Assembly: GCA_029891345.1 (NCBI GenBank)
Contig: CM056997.1
Location: 220,100,172-220,164,171 of the forward strand
Direction of reading: 5' to 3'
Length of the DNA: 64,000 nt
DNA from: Dryococelus australis
Taxonomy: Eukaryota; Arthropoda; Insecta; Phasmatodea; Phasmatidae
Shown here one piece after another: positions 20,111 to 62,951 of the stretch (the stretch's first letter is position 1; every line of letters begins with the position of its first letter). The notes beneath the pieces are model-generated. The model was not told the DNA's origin, ran no database searches, and worked only from the letters and a program-made list of their open reading frames with translations. The position numbers and the translations under genes are program-made.

Positions 20111-21765
20111 ACTAACGAAGTTTCCAGCAATAAGAGGGTTGCCACCCCTGTTATTATTGTGAATTTGCTCTTTGAAGATTCCAATATCATAAAAAATTGT
20201 TCCGCAAACTGTACTGTCATCTTACCTGGTTTCCGATATTTCACAAAAAAACATTTCAAAATCTCCATTTTCGGGTACTTATTTTGCCCTTAATATTTAG
20301 TTCCAGTTTCTAAGTGTCCTGTGTATTTGCCACTTGATTTTGCATAAGGAATCATTTCACAAAGTTTGTCGGTCAAATTCAGCCCCACCCTTACAATATT
20401 CATATAGGCCTACATAAAGCATAAGAAATTTTAGGTTGAGAGAAATCTGTTTACAAGAATCTGTGTTCAGTTAAATAATTATAAATCATAGAAACAGTTT
20501 ATTGTAAGAAAAAATGTCAAAACTGCGATATTTCGCATGTGTAATAATCCCATCTTTAATAGCTCTCCCAAGTGGGCAGCAATTGCCTTTATGTACATCT
20601 TGGAAATTACAGTTACAAATGCTGGATTCATCAGCTGGTTCTGTAGTCATCCAATTTAAAAGAAACCAATTTCTTTATTTGTATCACAGCTTGCACGATG
20701 AAATTAGCTTTAACAACTACTTCATTAATTGGTCCTGCAGTAGTCCGGGAAAATACAATTACATGTCAACTGAGAATTTTATTGGTGATGTACGTGTCAT
20801 GAAAATGAAAGTAAACAAATATGGGTTGAATTACTTGGAGTAAAAACATGTTTCCAAACACTACATATTTGCAAAGGTGACTATTAATACTATCAATTAC
20901 TGCATAAATATCTTGTTTCTGTCACATCACAGATTTGTTTCTGGAAATGATTTCTACAGATCAAATATGAGCCTCCCTTCTTAAAAACATAAACACAGCA
21001 AACTAATGATTTTTTACTCTCACTCTCTCACTTTCATGCGTACATTAAGTTTTCTGCTACATAATTCTGTTATTTCAAACTGTTTATTGCCAGTTATGCC
21101 AGCGAAGTGGCAGTATATCATGCCCAGACGTGTAACCATGAGAATCATAATCTGCTAGTTTTGGTTATCAGCAATATTTTTAAGGTTTGCTTTACTGCAT
21201 TCATTCTTGTCCCTTTTCATTGGTGAAATTAGCATAATGTTGCAATAGCAATTAAAAAAATTCAGATATAAAGCAATTTTGAAATTAAGAGTGAGCGTGA
21301 GTCAGCGAAAATCCCGCGATTCTAGCTGTGGAAAGTAATAGGATAGAAAGGTAGATGATACGATGTTGCAATAATATACGTACCCCTTTGTTGACGACAC
21401 AGGATTAGCATCTCAATGGCATCTTTTTCCTTTCAGAAATTTAAGTTTATTTTCAAATCTGATGGGCATAGTGGTTTGTGCAGTTTAAATGTTGCCCAAT
21501 ATAGGCTGGCGACACTCGCGTAAAGGAAATGGACGTGGTCTTCTATTGAGCTGCAAATCGAAGCTTAGACATCTACAGGACTACTTTGGAGAAAAAGATA
21601 CGTTCCATGAATTTCATGCTAAATTTTACATCATCTAAGCATAGTATTAAATTTTATTGTCCAGATTATACAATATAGTCATACTGTGTGTGTAATATGC
21701 AACTTTTTACTATTTTATTTATATATAGGCCCTATTTCAAAGTTATTTCCAATTGAGGGATGGTG
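20110..21765. other. AT-rich stretch, one unassigned open frame
   Basis: A plus-strand frame of 109 codons at 20514-20843 starts with a hydrophobic segment but has no recognised domain or homologous feature in the window, and is probably chance. Nothing else was seen. Confidence 0.4.
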
Positions 21766-22000
21766 GAGTAGATATAGTTGGGCAGATATTAACAGATAAA
21801 GGGATGCATGAAGTGAATATAGACCGGCGCCTAGAATAAAGAGTGGGTGGAAATGCGGGATCCCAGAGAAAATCTGTCGGCCAACGGCATCGTCCGAGTA
21901 CGATTCCCGCATGCCAAAATCCAAGTGATCCCGCTAGGAATAAAGCCCAGATCACTTTGGTTGGAGGCAAACGTTCTAGCCGTTGGACCGCCGCCATGTA
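21765..22000 (-). repeat. tRNA-derived SINE-like fragment
   Basis: On the minus strand it starts with GGCGGCGGTCCAACGGCTAG and AACGTTTGCCTCC, resembling a tRNA 5' half with an A box. A degenerate B box (GATCTGGGCTTTATTCC) follows, then the SINE body GCGGGAATCGTACTCGGACG, CCGTTGGCCGAC and TTTTCTCTGGGATCCC. The body motifs recur at 22410-22590 (minus) and, in part, at 30330-30475 (plus). The family name is not known to me. Confidence 0.6.
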
Positions 22001-22409
22001 TCGCGTTATCAGTTAATGGCTTATGAAAGGTATGAATCGAGATGACATTAATATGTAATCGTTATATGCCCTTATGTTAATTGGGTTATTTTACGTGTAA
22101 TACATTTTCAAGCCTCTGTGAATATTCTCATTTCAACTGCAATATGCAATGCCATGTTTTATATTATGTACCTGAGGCACAAACTCTCACAAGCTATAAA
22201 TACAATGAAATTAAATGTTCGTGCTTACCAGTATGATGTAATTTCATATGAAGGTCAATGTTGTGTGTACACAGAGCAGGACAATATGTGAACATTTTTG
22301 TAATTATGTTCTTAAATTAATTTAGCCTATTTACTTGCATTTTATTGTACATTAATCCATCAGTCTTTCAACACGAGTGAACCCAAGCTAAGTTGAGTTG
22401 AGACACCTT

Positions 22410-22590
22410 AGGTCTTCAGAGCCAATAAGAAAAAAAATGAGGTGAGTTTGGAGCAGCACTGAAATGGGAAAGGTTGAGAAAACTTGAGACCCCTGAGAAA
22501 ACCCGCCAACCAGTGGCATTGTCCGGTACGATTCTCTAATGCTAATATTCGAGAGTGACCCCACAAGGGAACCAAAGCTAAGTAATAATG
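22410..22590 (-). repeat. SINE-like fragment, second copy
   Basis: On the minus strand it carries GAATCGTACCGGACAATGCC, then TTGGCGGGTTTTCTCAGGGG. These match the body of the 21765-22000 copy (GAATCGTACTCGGACGATGCC, TTTTCTCTGGG) in the same order. The tRNA-like head is reduced. Confidence 0.6.
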
Positions 22591-23961
22591 CTGTGTCTTT
22601 TCATTTACTCAGTTAAGTTTAGAGGTCTACTATTATTTATTACTCTTTCTAAATAATCACTTGAAATTTATTATTTTCAATAACCATGATATATTTTTTT
22701 TATAAAAAATTATTTTATTAATTGAATGCACGCAATTCAATTTAATAACGTTTACGAATTAAATGTGGGACTACTTATTTTAATACATAATATAAAAACA
22801 TTTTTAATCAAACTATATTTACTTAAGTATGTCACATTATCTTATTTCATTTACAATTATTTATTAATAATATCTTTGAGTGCTGAAACCTTTTTATACA
22901 TGTAGTATTGCTCAAATCCCATTCTGTGGGGAACTTGTGGGTCACTTATTGTTTTCACATTTTCTGCATCAGCGTCTGTTAATGTCCAGTTATGATTATT
23001 ACTAATTAATTAGTCATGCAATGGGGTAGTTTTTTTCAGCTGTAGGCATTCGTTTGAGGTACATTATTACTTTTTAAACTCGTGTAAACTAGTGCCTTAT
23101 TTTCTGGACCAGGCACAACTTCTTAAAACCTATTTATTTTTCACATGGCTGTACCACCAATGGCATGAATGGTGTTTGGTAATGTAGCTGAACTAATCAT
23201 CTGTCATGTGTTCCAATTTCACTTTACAGGGACAATTTCCTTTGTCACTTTTTTTTAAATACTTAGTGCAGTGTAGAGTACGGCTTAAAAATATTTTAAA
23301 GATTCGTAAATTTTAAACGTTTGAGATTCAGACTATACATTCATATGTTATTTTTGTTGGTTTTCGACCCTACTACTAGCTGCCTATGTTTGGACGTCTA
23401 TTCTCGAAACACCCAATATATAGGATGGTGATGAACTCTGTTGACAATCTTCGGCAGGTGATTCCTCATAAAAAGAAGTCAAAAATATACACAACTTATA
23501 GGCCAAGTCTGTTCCTAAGGGGTGTAACCACCCTTGAGAGTGTAGTTGCAGCAGAGGTGTTTTGTTAGTGACACTACCAGAATAAACAATGAATGTCTAA
23601 GATTATTGATACTGTAATTTTAAACGACGAAATAAAAACCATGACAAATCTGGATTCGGGTGTGAACCCATCACATGAAAACGGACTTATTGGAATCCCA
23701 TTTTAGCATAACACAATTGTCCTATATTTGTTGTTGTTTTCCTGCAGATTAGTATTCTACCGTCCACGGTGAACAAAAACTCTGTCTTTTGTTTTTACAC
23801 TACGTGCCACCGTTTTCGAGAAATGCATTATTGTGTGCCAAATTATTCGATTCGATAGATACGAATGGTAAAAACGTTATACAATAAATTGGTTTGCCAT
23901 GCACGATGGATTACCAGTTCACAACGAAAAAATATAAAAGTGCCAGACATTAAAAATTATA
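22590..23961. other. AT-rich stretch, nothing firmly recognised
   Basis: Low-complexity AT-rich sequence. A 60-codon plus-strand frame at 23386-23568 has no recognisable motif. Confidence 0.5.
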
Positions 23962-24131
23962 ATGAACAAACGGTGTGTGTTTCCCATTTGTGAATTTGAA
24001 AATTTAACATTTCAGAGTTTTGGGTTTTTTTTTTTTTTTTTGCGTATTGGACAGCCTATATAACGTGTGCGGCAGAAAAAAATGTTTTCACTGACCCCTG
24101 TACCAGCCACTTTTTGCAGTTTACTTTTTTT
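23962..24131 (+). pseudogene. Possible THAP-like C2CH zinc-finger remnant
   Basis: From ATG at 23962 the frame reads MNKRCVFPICEFENLTFQSF, a C-x4-C motif near the N-terminus followed by an aromatic-rich segment. After a poly(T) expansion (about 24027-24041) a second frame gives W...KNVFTDPCTSHF, a C-x2-H motif, with CGRK in the neighbouring frame just before it. The order (initial C-x2-4-C, W, then C-x2-H-F at about 50 residues) is that of the THAP domain, a DNA-binding module of P-element and Kolobok-type transposases. The poly(T) run and at least one frameshift break it. It lies about 230 bp upstream of, and on the same strand as, the Mutator-like exon, so it could be that gene's first exon. 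Assignment is tentative. Confidence 0.35.
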
Positions 24132-24364
24132 TAACACACCAATACCATTCAGCGGTTAGCGATTACTCTCTAAGTCAGCACTGATGAATTACCACTACTT
24201 GTTCAATGAAACAAAATAATGTTAAGTAATTTTACAAACTAACCAGTTTATTGGGTACTCGTAGCAATATACAGCTGACAGATATTTCATGTTATTTTCA
24301 TTTTTTTATTTCAGACAATTGTTCTTTCTATAAGATTTGTTTGTAATATTTTTATTTTCCACAG

Positions 24365-24971
24365 GAATAAATCGGATTCACCGTGTGTTGAAGTCAATGC
24401 TTCAGTTTACGCAGAAACGGATAATGAAATACTATCCCAGATGGTTACACAAAAACACAATATTTCTGTGCTTGACAGTCATCAACAACAAATGCAAGGA
24501 AGACAAATAGTGGACATACATTTTTTTATTTTTTCCTTAAAAGAGCCTGCTAGTCACAGCCAAATGGGGTGCACTATGAAAGATATGGACGTTGTCCGCG
24601 AAAAACGGTGTGGTTTGTGGAGTTTATATTTAAATTTCGAAATGCCCGTGTAGAGTGAAAAAGATCCAGAGAAAATGGACGTGAATACAGCTGCAGGGAG
24701 TGGAACTATTTCTTCGGGTGGCGGACACGCACAGCTTGAAGAAGTGTTATCAGCAATGGATGTACCTGTCTTAAGTAAGGCTTTCCATAAATATCGCAAT
24801 ATTGTGTGTGATGCTTGGGAAGAAATGCAGACTACTGCTCTTGAAGAGGCTAGGCTTGTAAAGGAAAAGGGAGAAGTTGATTCTGACGGCATTCTGACAA
24901 TAACGGCTGTTGCTGACGGATGCTGGTCTAAAAGTTCTTACAGAACAAACTACACTGCCTTGTCTGGAGTC
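24365..24971 (+). pseudogene. Mutator-like transposase, 5' exon (decayed)
   Basis: The exon follows the acceptor TTTTCCACAG. The frame NKSDSPCVEVNAS...SQMVTQK runs into GRQIVDI, then to a TAG at 24651. Continuation in shifted frames gives a KCPC zinc-ribbon-like piece and then TAAGSGTISSGGGHAQLEEV, LSAMDVPVLSK, KEKGEVDSDGILTITAVADG, CWSKSSYRTNY and ALSGV. This series, with the AVADGCWSK motif providing the first catalytic-type aspartate, is the hallmark of the Mutator-like transposase family common in insects and cnidarians (Pfam 'Mutator'). The exon ends at GGAGTC before GTATGT, a good donor, in phase 0. Lesions: at least one frameshift around 24640-24675, plus the TAG. Confidence 0.85.
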
Positions 24972-25669
24972 GTATGTACTTAATAGCACACATATGCACA
25001 TGAATGTTTCCTACTTGTTCTTAAACAAATTATAAATGGGCAAGGCCGGATCTGGGTTTGAAAAGGGGGCGCTGGATGCCCCAGCTGCTGGACTAAGGAA
25101 TCGTGGGATGGGCCGAAAGTTTTTAAACAACTTTAACAAAAATATTCAAAAGCAAATTTAATATATGTGATTTTATCATAGTGTTTTCGTGAGTGCAGAA
25201 CACTATATTATTGTTATAAATACAGTGTGTAATTAATGACTGCATAAATTTCAAATAAGAATTTTACATTGAAATGCACACTGAGGCAAAACTAACTATG
25301 CGAGATACGTTTATTTTTAGCAGGTTGGCGAGGAAAAACAGAAAAAAAAAAGGGGGGGGCATTGGGGGGGGGGGGGGGGGGCACAAATCACCATAATTTC
25401 TGCTCCGGGTGAAAGAAAACGTAGATCCGGCCGGTTTGAAGCCACGACCAAGGTAAATAGAACTCTAAAAAAAGAGGAGGTTAAACTCACTGATGGTAGA
25501 GAAAATTATGTGTTTGTTTTGATGTTAGAGTATAGTTATTTTTGCTATAAAAAAAGCTGGTTAGTATTAATTTAGAGGATACCTATTATAATAAAACCAA
25601 CACAATTGAGTTGTTATTTTTGCGTAAAAAACGAAATTGGTAATCAAGTCTTTTTTAAGTATATTACAG
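24972..25669 (+). other. Intron of the Mutator-like gene
   Basis: Donor GTATGT at 24972 and acceptor TATATTACAG ending at 25669 join two exons whose products are consecutive in the family. The intron holds a 389 bp TIR element. Confidence 0.65.
25044..25432. mobile_element. 389 bp MITE-like TIR element in the intron
   Basis: Perfect 10 bp terminal inverted repeats, GGCCGGATCT ... AGATCCGGCC. The interior has no coding capacity, and the right half contains G runs of 8 and 18 (25352-25359 and 25364-25381). No clear target duplication was found, so the superfamily is open. Confidence 0.6.
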
Positions 25670-27344
25670 ATCTGAATATCATTGGGGCCGTGAACAAAGT
25701 TAAACTAGTATGGAAGCAGCTGTGATAGTAGAAGGATTTTGTAAAAGTCAAGACATGTACGGTCTTAAGTACACAAAACTCATTGCTGATGGAGACATAA
25801 CAGTGTCTATAAGAAGATTCTTGACGGACGACCATACAAGAACACCATAGTCGAAAAAATTTAATGCACCAACCATCTACTTCTGCATTTTTGTAATAAG
25901 CTGAAAGATATTACAACAACCTGCGACAAGACCCAGAACACAGTCCTCATGAGAAAAAAAATCAGGGATTACATACTTTGGTTTAGAGCTGCTGTTAATA
26001 AAGCCATTGACTACAGAGGTTTAGAGCTGCTGTTAATAAAGCCATTGACTACAGAAGAAACGAAGGTACATCATTTTACACGAAGGTAGAGGAACTACGG
26101 AAAGATATACTCAACAGTGCCAGTCATATTTCCGGTGAACACAAGCAGTGCAACGAGAGAAATTACTTTTACAAATCTGAAAAAAGTGAAAATTTTGTAC
26201 CAGCGCTTCAGAAGTGCAGCCTGTTTCAAAAAGTGCAGAACGTTGTTAGTAACCAGAGCAGAAACCTCATTCACAAAGTTAACAGAAACAGAGTGGAGCA
26301 CTACAATGCAGTGTAGCAAAATTTGGAGGCAGAAAACGAGTTAACTTTTCTGCAGGCCGGTCATAGAGAAGATGTTCTGGAGCAGTTGTTCGCCACAACA
26401 CCGGAATGAATGCCAATGTACAAAATACACTAATTTATGTACGAGAAAAGTCCAGGCATCTTATGTAAGAACATGAGAGCATAGAAGGAAACGAAGATTG
26501 CAAAAAAAAAGAAAAAATAAAAACAACAGTCGGTGCAAAAAGAAGTTGTTGAGTAGAACTAAGGCAGGCAAAGATTACGGCCCTAATGTTGAGCGACCAG
26601 ATCTTGATCCGGAAACATTCAAGCAAGAATGTGACGAATTTCTAAACAAACTGCATCTCACAGAAAGTGAAAGACATGCCGTGGAGAGAGCAATTGTCTT
26701 ACAAAGAGAGAGTGGAGAACGAAGAAGAAACATTCTCAAGGGTTTGCAGAATGCTGCCGCACACAAGTTTTGCATCGACTGTGAAGACTATGCTGTATAA
26801 CCACGTGGAATGTGAATCCCTTGCATATAACAAAGAAAATGAAATCAGATCTACTGCTGAAATTGAAAGTAAACTTAATATGAAAACATACACAAATGTG
26901 GACTTTTTATTGATCCAGAAATACCGTACCTTGATTCTACTCCAGATCCATTAGTAGGGGCAGATGGCATAGTCGAAATAAAATGACCATTTTCATCTTC
27001 AAGAATGACGCCTCACGAGGCCATGGTAAAGAAAAAAGTTACATGTTGTTGTATTGACAAACATGGCAAAATTCTTAGCTTAAAGAAGAAACATCCATAT
27101 CATTATAAGGTCCAAGGTCAGCTCCATATTTCAGAGAGAAAATTGTGTCTGTTTTGTGTTTGGGCATCATTGGGGATTGAAGTTCAGAGTTTTTAACGAG
27201 ATGACGAATATTGGAAGACTGAAATGCTCCCGAATTTGATGAAAGTTTGCATGGAACTGGCACACCAGGTCCATGCCAATCCGAGACCCGGAATATATTA
27301 TTGAGGCACAAAGAAAACAACAACAAAAAAAGAAAGTGAAATAA
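25670..27344 (+). pseudogene. Mutator-like transposase (3' part) fused to YqaJ-type PD-(D/E)XK nuclease, decayed
   Basis: The transposase resumes with TSMEAAVIVEGF, YGLKYTKLIADGD (second catalytic-type Asp), IVEK, CTNHLLLHFCNKLKD, VEHYNAV and AKFGGRKRVNFSAG. Without an intervening terminator in the family layout it passes to ERPDLDPETFKQECDEFLNK, ERAIVLQRESGE and RVCRMLPHTSFASTVKTMLY. The nuclease core then follows: AYNKENEIR (Glu), CGLFIDPEIPYLDSTPDPLV (Asp of TPD), GADGIVEIK (E-x-K) and HPYHYKVQGQLHIS (Q motif). That is the full PD-(D/E)XK series of YqaJ/lambda-exonuclease-like enzymes. A basic tail (QQQKKKVK) ends at TAA 27342-27344. Lesions include several stops and frameshifts, a TGA at 26984-26986 directly after VEIK in an otherwise open frame, and a 38 bp tandem duplication at 25980-26055. 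It is a dead copy of a transposon gene; family assignment is strong, activity is excluded. Confidence 0.85.
25980..26055. repeat. 38 bp tandem duplication inside the pseudogene
   Basis: The 38 bases beginning GGTTTAGAGCTGCTGTTAAT occur twice in direct succession (25980-26017 and 26018-26055) with no differences. As 38 is not a multiple of three it shifts the frame. The identity of the two copies suggests a recent event. Confidence 0.95.
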
Positions 27345-28345
27345 ATTTCTTCCAACATTGTCAAAACTTCTCTCACAAAACCTGAACTGTTATCCCATTT
27401 TGATGAGAGACAAATTATTGTTATTATCCCACTAACTTAACCCAGCGGATTTTATAATGAACAGCCAAGTTACTATATTTTAAAATTTTTGAAATCACAC
27501 TTATATGGTTGGGTTATGAACAGTCACATTTATTTTGTATAAGAGTTGTTTTTAAAATGACTGCATCTTCTACATTGTTACACTGAAAACGAAAGAAGAG
27601 TGCAGATTTTAAAATTTAGTTGTTTCAAAATGTTCTTTTATGTATTATAACACAGTAAAAATGTTAGTATATTATTACAGATGACATGAAAGTGCTGATG
27701 ATGGGGCTGTGAAGTACTACAGTTGTAACATACCTTATATATTGTTTTATGAATTTTTACGTAACTCTGGAACTGTACCATGTATATATAATCAAATATA
27801 TATATATATTTATTTATTTATTTAATGTCTGTATTTTATCATTTTTCATTTTAATATGTTAAGAAGATGTTTGTTTGCACATGTGAGTGTGTCCAGTGAC
27901 ATTCGGGTAAGATTTCGCACCTGTGAACATATGGTATCACACATGATAATTTATTGATTTCAGTCATTTGCTTACGTTAAATAATTTGATTTATCTTCAA
28001 GGAAATACGTTTGATTTTATTGTATAATATGTAATATTTATATTTGGACATTATTATTTCTATATGGGGAATGGTGTTACGTCTATATTACCATGGGCTG
28101 CATTGTAAGTAATACACTGTTAACTATCGCACGACTTATATCAACATTAAATACGTAATTATATTTGTGTTGTATAAATATAGACAACAACTGAAACTTA
28201 ACTATTGTTTTATAATGTTATTTGTTTTAAAATTCTTAAAAATTTATTGTCTAATAATAGAAAAAAGATTTTGTTTGATATCTTATAAGAATGATAAGTA
28301 ATAAATAAAATGAAGTTGCAGTGCAATGCGTGTTTTATCTTGCAA
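27345..28345. other. AT-rich stretch downstream of the Mutator-like gene
   Basis: No domain seen. It presumably holds the 3' UTR and perhaps the terminus of the Mutator-like transposon, but no TIR partner to the left side could be matched by eye. Confidence 0.4.
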
Positions 28346-29097
28346 GTTAATGTACGACACAATCAACATTCAACCTAACGTCTAAAGTACAGCAACTTGT
28401 GAAGTTAATGTATGACACAATCAACATTCAACCTAACGTCTAAAGTACAGCAACTTGTGAAGTTAATGTACACACAATCAACATTCAACCTAACGTCTAA
28501 AGTACAGCATCTTGTGAAGTTAATGTACGACACAATCAACATTCAACCTAACGTCTAAAGTACAGCAACTTGTGAAGTTAATGTACGACACAATCAACAT
28601 TCAACCTAACGTCTAAAGTACAGCAACTTGTGAAGTTAATGTACGACAATCAACATTCAACCTAACGTCTAAAGTACAGCATCTTGTGAAGTTAATGTAC
28701 GACACAATCAACATTCAACCTAACGTCTAAAGTACAGCATCTTGTGAAGTTAATGTACGACACAATCAACATTCAACCTAACGTCTAAAGTACAGCAACT
28801 TGTGAAGTTAATGTACGACACAATCAACATTCAACCTAACGTCTAAAGTACAGCAACTTGTGAAGTTAATGTACGACACAATCAACATTCAACCTAACGT
28901 CTAAAGTACAGCAACTTGTGAAGTTAATGTACGACACAATCAACATTCAACCTAACGTCTAAAGTACAGCAACTTGTGAAGTTAATGTACGACACAATCA
29001 ACATTCAACCTAACGTCTAAAGTACAGCAACTTGTGAAGTTAATGTACGACACAATCAACATTCAACCTAACGCCTAAAGTACAGCAACTTGTGAAG
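28346..29097. repeat. 58 bp minisatellite, 13 copies
   Basis: The unit starts GTTAATGTACGACACAATCA, continues ACATTCAACCTAACGTC and ends TAAAGTACAGCAACTTGTGAA. Thirteen copies are nearly identical. Variants are CAGCATC for CAGCAAC (copies 3, 6, 7) and short deletions in copies 3 and 6. High identity points to recent expansion or homogenisation. No unique spacers, so not CRISPR. Confidence 0.97.
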
Positions 29098-30330
29098 TAA
29101 TGATACTTGTTCGGTTATTGTTATATTTTTTTTACTACTGCATTTAGTTCCAGTTTTAATCATAAGACTATGGTTTAAATCTGCACTTGTGTTTTCCTGT
29201 ATGATATATTTGCTGAAGTTTGAAGTATTAGCGAACCCTGAATTCGATCACATTCAATAATAGTTAGAAGTTTGCTACGTCAAACATGTAGAGAGAGAAA
29301 CAGAGGTTGTTGTAACGAGAGTGCATGTGAGATAAAATTATGCAAATAAAAATCTGTAAACTATTTGAAACATATTTCCTTAATCATGATTTTTTTTCCC
29401 ACAATTGAGTCATTGGGTTGCTAATGTAGTAAAATTTTATCACGGAACAAATACAGAAGAGCTTGAGATTTGCAGTTTTCAGATAGAAACGAACCAGTGT
29501 TAGTAAACAGTATGAGAGAGATTTCTGGACAGTAACCTTCCCCTTGAAAGCATTGTCTCCCCTTCCCCCCTCCTTCGCCAGGCTTGTTGTGATCGCGAGT
29601 GATGGGAACAATAGATAACGTCTGCAGATAAGTTGCCCCGGCTTGGTTTGAAAACAAACTATCTCCAGAAGCTACTGAAATAGCAAATATTAATATTAAA
29701 AATTATATAATTTCGGGGAAACTGTTAATAGCACCAATTTGTGATACATCACAAAAAGAATCCACAGAGTTTACTTGGTAACAGTTATAAAAAAGTTGCT
29801 AATACACTTACTATAAGAGGCAACAGCACGATCTCTTATACCATGTCATAGTGTTCACCAATCATTAAAAAAGTTTATTTATTATAAAATTACATAACAT
29901 TAAAATTTATATTTAGACAACATAGTTCTTTTCTTTTTATCAAGTGCGACAAAATAATGTTAACTCTCATTAAATTTGCACATTTAGAAATCTTGAAAAA
30001 GTCCAGTTAAATTTAACATTGCTTCTTATGGCTCACATTTTATGTACTGCTCACTCTTAAGTCTGTAATATTTTTTGCAGTATAATTAAAGCTCAAAGAT
30101 GTACAATTATTACATAACAGCAATAGGCCACCTACCGGTAGTTAATTTCTGTGAGGCACAGAAACATGGGAATGATAAGGGCAACACTGCCCCCATCGCT
30201 GCTAGACACACACCCACCCACCCCCGCACCCACACACAGCATGCAGTGTTTTCTGTCGCGCTACATGTAATCATGCATTTTTTTTTTTTTTTATGAAAAC
30301 CAGTTTATATCTAGTGAGGTTGCGCATGAT
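29098..30330. other. AT-rich stretch, nothing recognised
   Basis: Two overlapping minus-strand frames at 29384-29657 have no recognisable motif. Confidence 0.5.
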
Positions 30331-53728: not shown

Positions 53729-55509
53729 CAGCATAACATCTCTATTACGACCCCTCACAGTTCCTGATAAGTGTCAATAGAGGGGGGGGGGGGGGGGGAG
53801 TCGTAATATAAAATATGGAGAATTTTGTGTCGATTTTGAACTGCCCTTAACCGCTATGCCCCCAAACTTGCCATTTTTGGCATGAAGTATCTTCAACAGT
53901 CTCTAGCATATTAAAAAACCACTTTTTAAACTAAACATGTTTATTTTAATAGCTGGACGTCTCCTGATCAATTTGACACCCAAGAAAGGCATATTGGACC
54001 ACCCATTGCCTTAAAAAAGAAGGCCAATGAAAGTGTGTGAAAACATTAGACTATGTATTATTAAAATATAAAGTTATTATTAAAGATCTATTACGCAGGT
54101 CTTGTAGGTCATACATTGCTATGAAGCATGTAGCGATCAAAAAGTTTAGGTGGCATTGCAGAATACGTGTGTGCGCATCGTGCTCTCGCTTTGGTCTGGC
54201 CATGTACGTAGCTGGGCGAGCGCCTAGATCCTCTGCAACGCGGACGGGTGCGGGCGTGGCGGTTTGCTGCTGAAGCTTGGCCTTAGATCCTCAGGCTGAG
54301 CAGCTGTCGGTTGGTCACTACAAGATGGCATGCGGCAGCCACCTGCCCACCACCACTGCTGTCATTACAGGGCCAGTTCACTCCATAACAGCGGCCCGGC
54401 GTTGGATAACATGCTGATAGATGCGATTCACCTCAATGTGTTGAATTTATACTAAATGTAGGCAGCGTGTTGGCCTCTGCACTGGCACGATGAGGCCCAG
54501 CAATGTTTACGGGAATATAAATATTTAGTACGGTCTACTTGAATAATTAACTATCCCAAATTTCTCATCAAAAACTTTTGACGTTGCCTATACACGCACG
54601 CGGCCTCAATCGCAATAATATGGCACCGGTAACATAAGAACACATCTTAATTACACACACTTATCTTTATTCACTTTACACATAAAATTGTCTTCACAAG
54701 AAACAAAAAACAATTGCCCACACCACAATAAAAAACTAACATATTAAATAGGCGTGGGTGCACATAAACTTAAAAATAGTAATTAAATAAAGGGTGTACA
54801 ATGATTAAGAAACTAGTCTGCGTAATGTGCCACTGTTATTACAGCAAAAGGGGAGGGATAATGGAAGCAAAAAAAAAGACAGGGAGGGTAAGGTAGCGGC
54901 AGTGGCATGTGACTAGGGCAAAGTATCCTTACAGACCCGGCCTGCAATCCCCCCCCCCCCTCACAGTGCATTAAGCAATTTATTGCTTCTCGCTGCTTGG
55001 GACAACTAATGTCAAAGTCTATGATGGTAAAGGCCATTCACTGTAAAGTGAGCACTTTTGAAAGCCCTCTCATTTGGAATAATAGTCAATAGGTATGCTT
55101 TACTTTAGCCTTAGATGTTAACTTCCAAGTGCAGTGGAATATACACACTGTGTTTATTACTTACATAGCAATATTTGTTTAAAAAGATGTTTAAAGGGTA
55201 AAAAAATGGCTGAAAGGGAAAAGTAACCAGAAGTGCTCACTTTACCGTGAACAGCTTATAGCTTGAGAACTGCACGACAACTAACATCAGTAAGGGCTAG
55301 TTTTCCATAGACTAAAAACCGTGGATAATAGAAACTAGTACCGCAGTTGGAGAAAACGTCTACACAACAAATTTGCGCATAACTGAAACCGCAGTTCAAG
55401 ATACTGTGGATGGCGAGGGATTACTGTATCTATTTTTAGATGTTCAACATTTCACGGTTCCTCGGGATTAGGTCGTAATAGAGGTGGTCGTAATGGAGGG
55501 GTTTTACTG
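53729..55509. mobile_element. pogo-type TIR element inserted into a pogo transposase remnant
   Basis: The right end, read inward, is CAGTAAAACCCCTCCATTACGACC; the left end is CAGCATAACATCTCTATTACGACC, matching at most positions. Both abut TA (53727-53728 and 55510-55511). Removing it rejoins the flanking transposase frame exactly as LQPLDRAVNGPFK. It carries a run of 17 G near its left end (53782-53798) and 12 C at 54949-54960, and no transposase domain of its own. Confidence 0.8.
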
Positions 55510-60969: not shown

Positions 60970-62951
60970 TAGGGACGGGCCGATGCCGATTAACTGGCCG
61001 ATACCACGACCAACGGCATCTGAAAATTATTTGCAGATTATTATTCACCAATTAGTGGCGCTAATTCATTTAACACACTGTTAAATACACCAGCATGCTA
61101 CATCTCGTAAAGTATTAATTTACCACATCCATTAACCAAATATCCTGTCCGAAACCCAAAACATATTTAGAACAATTGTTTTCCGATGATTTTCTCCTTT
61201 TGTTTACATTTTACCGTATTTCACGTTGGTACATTTGCCAAAGATTTTGTGCATCATTCGTTTTTGGACACTATGTGAATGCAAAACGCAACTTAGGGTC
61301 CCCGAAAAATTGTGAAGTGCGAAAACTTACGAAATTTGCCATTATTAACAGTTTTACGTAAATTTTCACCATTTGTTTTTTAAACACAAAGTTATACCTG
61401 CAAAAAAATGTATCTTCCCGATTGTTTACATCACATGCGAGACGTCACCTCACTAACGAATGTTGTTAGAACAGATAGTAACCTTAATAGACAGTGCACG
61501 TTATTATCTCAAAGATCCAAAAGAGGGCAGTAAATTCGACAAATAAGTGTTTGTATGACATATATCAATTGTTATTTGGATCGATTGTGAACCGAAAGAG
61601 AGCAGCACAAGAAATTCATACATGTTTTCTCGCAAGAACAAAATATATCTCATGTAGTCTTCGGGCATTGCATTCCCAGGCAGTGTTCCCTTCCCTGCGC
61701 TGATGTGACCAGCTCCATAGCCGCCAGTTGTTATTCTGTTACTCCATGCATTTATTGCTGGGCTGGGGAACGGAACAACTTCTATGCTCTGTTTTCGGGC
61801 ACTTAATTTGAGCGTTTTATTTACGAATGGCAAGACATTTACATATACGGCGATGGTAAACCCATGATCCTGTCATACAATTTGACAGGATAACGTGTTT
61901 AAAATTGTAATATATGTAAACAAGGCATAATAAAATTAATTGAATATTAAATATTTAACAGCAACCAAGTATTCATATTAACCTCAAAGTCGTACACACA
62001 GCAGATAAATATGTCACAGGTTGGCATTACAATCTCTTTTATTTTCGCCTAGTTACATTTTCTTAACTTCAATGGGAAAAAGGAAGCAGTATTTTGTTTT
62101 GAGGGAGGGCTTTAGTTTACAATGTCTTTCATGAGACGACTTTGTTATGATGGAGCATTGGAAAATTTTGCTCGTATGGAAATAACATTCAAATTATTGT
62201 AACTCCAAAAAATTTCAACTTCAATGGAAAAACCAAACCTGATTAATACATCGCTGTTTGTATTGTACAGATGTAGCAATACACACACGCAACAAACACA
62301 CTTTGACCGAAGTTAACTTTACACTCGCTGAATTCACTATATAGGCAAAGAAACAAATATTATTTACACACCACTAAAGTGTTGAAAGTGCAACTTTATT
62401 AGGCCACGTGCATTTCAATAATTATAGTAACAGTTTCCAAATACATTAATTACAAAACATGCAAACTTACTGTTAGTTAAATTTGCAACATCGTAAAAAC
62501 ATGTTTTCCTATGTAAATCCTTACAAGTTTACTTCACCAAAATCACGTTTGTTCATCATTAGCATATTATAATTTATTTACAGAATCATTCAGTAAAATC
62601 AACACTGCGCACATTGCCTAAAACCAACAAACTTGCCCTTTGGACTCCGCCAAAGCTAGCTAACCTCTCAATTCTCACTTTTCTGGCATTTTCCCACCAC
62701 TGTGACGTCAGCACACGAAGCATTTATGCTTTTCCATAATGTTGTTTATGCGTGAGAATGGCAAGAAATAGAACGACGTAGGAGGTACACCAATGCGCCT
62801 GCGAAAACGGATTGGAACTACTTTGCCGCGCATATTTAGCATTGTGCAGGTAACGGAAAACTGCCTCAATCCCAACTGAAATTTATTGTGTTTATTGTTT
62901 TGATTGTTTTTTTTTTTTAAGTTGAATTGTGCGTTACCTAAAGCCCACAAA

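Follow-up and report, generated by a model that had tools for sequence, protein, structure and literature searches.

A probable Kolobok transposon of Dryococelus australis from a family that fuses its transposase to a lambda-exonuclease-type nuclease

Results

An element bounded by TTAA

The window, a stretch of 64,000 nucleotides of the Dryococelus australis genome (C5:220100172-220164171), contains the broken coding region of a transposase followed on the same strand by that of a nuclease, inside a larger repeated element (Table 1). Searches of the insect's own genome, from which the loci carrying L numbers below are taken, covered 3.415 Gb in 646 contigs. The limits of the element were obtained by comparison with locus L032 and its neighbours L041 and L042, which together form a second, independent copy with about 84% identity to the window. 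In both full copies the homology is bounded by TTAA on each side and the flanks are unrelated, so that the element corresponds to 21285-30060. The inverted ends of the window element are 8 bp long (GAGTGAGC...GCTCACTC). The termini are GA...TC in the window and in L032, and the right end TC is also displayed by L028, in agreement with a 5′-RR...YY-3′ pattern.

A genome search with the right end, in which 40 of 249 candidates were scored, allowed 14 copies to be cut out, the window among them. Their flanks differ, and the TTAA is exact in 12 of the 14, window included, the remaining two having TTGA and TCAA. The right-end segments of these 14 copies show a mean corrected distance of 0.087 (range 0.047-0.118). 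On the left, where 40 of 146 candidates were scored, 34 of 39 separate outer pieces begin within the first three bases. Pairing of the left and right match lists gave at least 13 places with both ends, including the window, with lengths of about 4.5-9.4 kb. Both ends were established for the family of the window. A second subfamily (L028), for which only the right end could be established, finishes in ...CGACTC followed by TTAA. Its sisters L021 and L022 share the same end point, but with TTAG and TTGC, respectively. The 5′ ends of subfamilies besides that of the window were looked for and not found.

The minisatellite in the 3′ non-coding part of the window element corresponds to roughly a single unit in L032; the array has therefore expanded in the window copy.

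Table 1. Features of the element in the window (positions in the window)
Feature	Position	Strand	Remarks
Whole element including TTAA on each side	21285..30060	+	about 8.8 kb; homology with the independent copy L032/L041/L042 begins and stops here
Left TTAA target-site duplication	21285..21288	.	comparison with the independent copy
Left terminal inverted repeat GAGTGAGC	21289..21296	.	comparison with the independent copy
Broken exon, transposase N-terminal part	24365..24971	+	after AG; first catalytic D 24915; PF20700 match 24654-24980; GTATGT donor at 24972
Intron remainder	24972..25680	+	acceptor and start of next exon with CCHC finger deleted
Broken transposase C-terminal part	25681..26380	+	DGD 25788, CTNH 25865, E 26296
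38-bp tandem duplication inside transposase part	25980..26055	+	
Broken linker and lambda-exonuclease/YqaJ nuclease	26477..27344	+	PD motif, D 26945; ExK 26975-26983; Q 27113; stop 27342-27344
58-bp minisatellite	28344..29102	+	13.2 copies, 98% match; 3′ non-coding part of the element
Right terminal inverted repeat GCTCACTC	30049..30056	.	copy comparison and right-end search
Right TTAA target-site duplication	30057..30060	.	copy comparison and right-end search

The transposase part, its intron and the lesions of the window copy

The Pfam family PF20700, named "Mutator", matches positions 24654-24980 with an E-value of 3.9e-20 and 25704-25847 with 1.3e-6, and the piece 26011-26313 gives a weak match (0.004) below the cut-off. 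No transposase family besides PF20700 was matched in the Pfam search at E 0.01, and a profile of the transposase part compared with solved structures gave no meaningful match. The exon carrying the first D is interrupted by an in-frame stop at 24651-24653. Since it starts directly after an AG, a further exon upstream of 24365 is likely; none was found. The CxxH motif is present in six of the seven aligned rows that cover it, and the CCHC finger following the first D is complete in five of six. In the family of the window this finger is kept by L032 and deleted in the window copy.

Ahead of the next exon, L022, L028 and L034 display TTTTACAG acceptors and L021 displays TTTTACAA. Many PF20700 matches in the genome are interrupted at profile position 176, which fits an intron there; L003 and L005 read through. 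For a G-rich stretch near 25350, we considered a nested transposon interrupting the exon; as L032 homology continues across this stretch, we regard it as part of the family's intron. In the case of L037, a break near the intron position was likewise rejected as an intron. It turned out to be a different insertion of about 1.5 kb (L037:1529-3064) with its own inverted ends (TTACCCCACTTA-type), located almost exactly at the intron position of the sister subfamilies and absent from its relatives L003 and L006.

The window copy is dead: its last exon changes frame about seven times, in-frame stops occur, 38 bp are duplicated in tandem, and about 465 bp that L032 and L044 retain have been lost at 25680. 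The first-pass annotation, made on the letters of this stretch, had already called it dead. It had also read an ordered transposase-to-nuclease series on one strand, which is indeed present, spread over three frames, and its limits of 24365-27344 fit the coding part, from the AG just before to the final stop, within a larger element.

Both domains in one frame

Evidence for a single protein comes from L043 (C1:72.87 Mb), a member of the window's family with 84-88% DNA identity. There, one stop-free frame of 462 aa contains PF20700 (residues 4-115, 3.9e-13) and the nuclease family PF09588 (residues 299-404, 4.2e-6), and aligns to window 25790-27184 with 48% identity (E 4e-125). L043 is not a whole gene, as sequence corresponding to window 24218-25192, including the first-D exon, is missing from it; none of the copies examined is stop-free over the whole gene. 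L044 (C5:61.94 Mb) also belongs to the window's own family, pieces of the two loci aligning with the window at 77-88% DNA identity. It displays a 428-aa frame with the nuclease and the E-motif region, the Pfam transposase match being in an overlapping second frame. L023, at 40% protein identity to L043, has the same architecture, interrupted by a single stop in its transposase part. Its last frame, of 384 aa, is stop-free across the E-motif region and the nuclease.

When this last frame was searched against the insect's own genome, 112 matches were obtained. In four of these, counting the query itself, no stop interrupts the two domains over an interval that begins ahead of the E motif of the transposase (query residue 69) and extends past the ExK of the nuclease (residue 310): C13:29008203, C5:61944704, C1:72875802 and C1:220086928, two of which were inspected as full loci (L043 and L044). 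As these other copies are stop-free through both domains, the fusion of transposase and nuclease in one protein frame stands. A fusion had been proposed from the window alone, to be abandoned if intact relatives always encoded separate genes. The single frame of L043 speaks for it, as do the order and strand, which recur.

At least 126 PF20700 and at least 150 PF09588 matches are present in the genome. Among the matches listed, 19 pairs lie within 5 kb of each other; all 19 share one strand, with the nuclease following the transposase match at a distance of 558-890 bases, and opposite-strand pairs number zero (chance expectation about 0.06 pairs). The other 131 of the 150 listed nuclease matches have no listed PF20700 match within 5 kb, which may stem from the lists being lower bounds. 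Individual loci were scored with profiles whose source rows include some of the loci scored. On that basis, all eight loci chosen for PF20700 only (L001-L008) have a nuclease downstream on the same strand, as do ten of 11 loci taken by place and having no listed nuclease (L028-L034, L036-L038, L040; the other nine of that set of 20, with a listed nuclease nearby, were left out). From the opposite direction, among the PF09588 loci L009-L020, considered with about 1.5 kb of flanks, a transposase is found upstream in nine of 12 and is absent from L012, L013 and L016.

L038, the exception among the 11 loci taken by place, has an open PF20700 transposase copy (L038:2698-3771), while its sole nuclease match is weak and lies about 2.2 kb further downstream; it may represent a nuclease-free lineage.

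The nuclease and its conservation

None of four nuclease-side pieces of the window (26477-27193) matches Pfam YqaJ alone. A profile made from genome copies matches the window nuclease at 26594-27202 with 1e-64. For structure comparison, a profile of nine genome copies was used and recovered LHK-Exo (3SYY, 4.8e-15), mimivirus R354 (5YET, 1.4e-11) and lambda exonuclease (1AVQ, 9.5e-8), the D...ExK and downstream Q regions being aligned. The nuclease profile also matches a PHROG exonuclease family (1.6e-7) and, below its cut-off, the NCBIfam lambda-exonuclease family; the broken window pieces gave nothing significant against PHROGs. Viral contigs scanned with the 462-aa frame of L043 yielded one pattern match and no confirmed relative. 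Lambda exonuclease, LHK-Exo and R354 are free-standing recombination enzymes, whereas the nuclease here is fused behind a transposase.

The catalytic residues of the lambda-exonuclease family are largely kept here. In a set of 64 aligned stretches, which includes split ones and counts L010 twice (within L024), those covering each column retain D in 40 of 45 cases, E and K in 40 of 44 each, and the two Q residues in 38 of 45 (first) and 42 of 45 (second). L043 has E in place of the D, and the window copy K in place of the first Q, substitutions that would count against activity of those single copies.

Comparison of the subfamilies with one another shows saturation at synonymous sites, with differences of 0.75-0.91 for the nuclease and 0.75-0.93 for the transposase, against nonsynonymous proportions of 0.26-0.46 and 0.26-0.42, respectively. 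The nuclease therefore shows signs of purifying selection about as strong as that on the transposase, a reading which uses the between-subfamily contrast only, within-family dN/dS being 0.38, 0.54 and 0.76.

Discussion

The element of the window very probably represents an autonomous DNA transposon, now decayed, of the KolobokE type within the Kolobok superfamily, as judged by published feature descriptions. Kolobok elements are described by TTAA duplications, 5′-RR and YY-3′ ends and a C/DxxH signature (Kojima and Bao 2022, PMC9587614). The TTAA, the 5′-RR...YY-3′ ends, the CxxH and the CCHC finger after the first D are published Kolobok marks, which places our element among a known kind. TTAA and AG ends are also reported for Kolobok copies of Xenopus (PMC6004289). 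The KolobokE lineage has already been named for the pairing of a transposase with a nuclease (PMC9587614), and two of its features, the CCHC finger after the first D and the lambda-exonuclease-type nuclease, are found here. Consequently, the earlier suggestion that this combination be defined as a family has been overtaken. The passages on KolobokE consulted here do not state whether its two components share a frame; one frame is what we observe. KolobokD and KolobokP resemble our element as Kolobok lineages with a CCHC finger and an added nuclease, but this nuclease is of the DEDDh or His-Me finger type, instead of PD-(D/E)XK (PMC9587614). PiggyBac was also considered on the basis of TTAA and rejected, PF20700 being the only transposase family matched at E 0.01.

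How such a protein might work can be proposed by analogy. As in Kolobok, the DDE part would catalyse excision from, and integration into, TTAA sites. The fused nuclease could trim 5′ strands at the transposition breaks (5′-to-3′ resection), and this resection might favour repair from a homologous copy, so that the donor site would be refilled and copy number would rise. We offer these last steps, taken together, as a tentative scheme. Resection of transposition ends seems to us the likeliest role for the nuclease, although with less than even confidence; the removal of by-products, or activity against other DNA, is at least as open. More doubtful still is the broader idea of a cut-and-paste transposase whose built-in 5′-to-3′ resecting nuclease would steer the repair of the element's excision breaks towards homologous copying, and so provide a self-contained cut, resect and refill system for gaining copies, selected through several diverged subfamilies of one genome.

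Alternatively, the nuclease could have a function other than donor-end resection: clearing failed by-products, acting on foreign or rival DNA, or a mainly structural or DNA-binding one. We would give this an even chance. Lambda-type exonucleases act on free duplex ends whatever their origin, and conserved catalytic letters fit any nuclease role. A purely structural part, on the other hand, is at odds with the fact that about 90% of the covering stretches keep D, E, K and Q.

It is very unlikely that the two domains are separate genes of one element which look continuous only through decay, as a comparison with ISL2EU might suggest. That DNA transposon does carry a YqaJ nuclease, on an open frame of its own (PMC4482050); most copies here are broken, and the domains of L003, L021 and L022 now lie in different frames. 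However, both domains are crossed without a stop in L043, in the last frame of L023 and in the other stop-free matches, and the spacing of the listed same-strand pairs is constant. ISL2EU differs further by a PHIS-type transposase with THAP and an A|AT|T target.

The view that a true Mutator-like element (MULE) has captured a YqaJ nuclease is hardly tenable, the "Mutator-type" label of the first reading having no support beyond the Pfam name of the transposase domain. Mutator-like elements make duplications of 8-11 bp, against the 4-bp TTAA found here. Although Kolobok and MuDR transposases have the C/DxxH signature in common (PMC9587614), Mutator elements typically carry far longer inverted repeats (PMC6446971) than the 8-bp ends observed. 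The extra CCHC finger and the lack of any Pfam transposase match at E 0.01 other than PF20700 also speak against a MULE, and the element ends, TTAA with short GA...TC termini, fit Kolobok and largely refute it.

In the literature searched, no title or abstract except that of PMC9587614 reports the fusion, "YqaJ" and "Kolobok" occur together in no paper, and "KolobokE" is confined to PMC9587614. The window family may be undescribed. Our analysis adds the exact ends, the intron, the lesions, the evidence for one frame and the signs of selection on the nuclease. Animal proteins annotated with Pfam "Mutator" and YqaJ may be Kolobok elements. Moreover, the evidence that transposase and nuclease form one physical protein, and that the nuclease was kept under purifying selection, makes a role of the fused exonuclease in transposition testable in cell culture.

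Outside the element, the window contains two pieces of other repeat families. About 235 bp at 55025-55263 are common to L020, L034 and L041 with 68-79% identity, and about 490 bp at 62142-62632, of an unrelated family, are 78% identical to L037:2179-2658, inside the L037 insertion.
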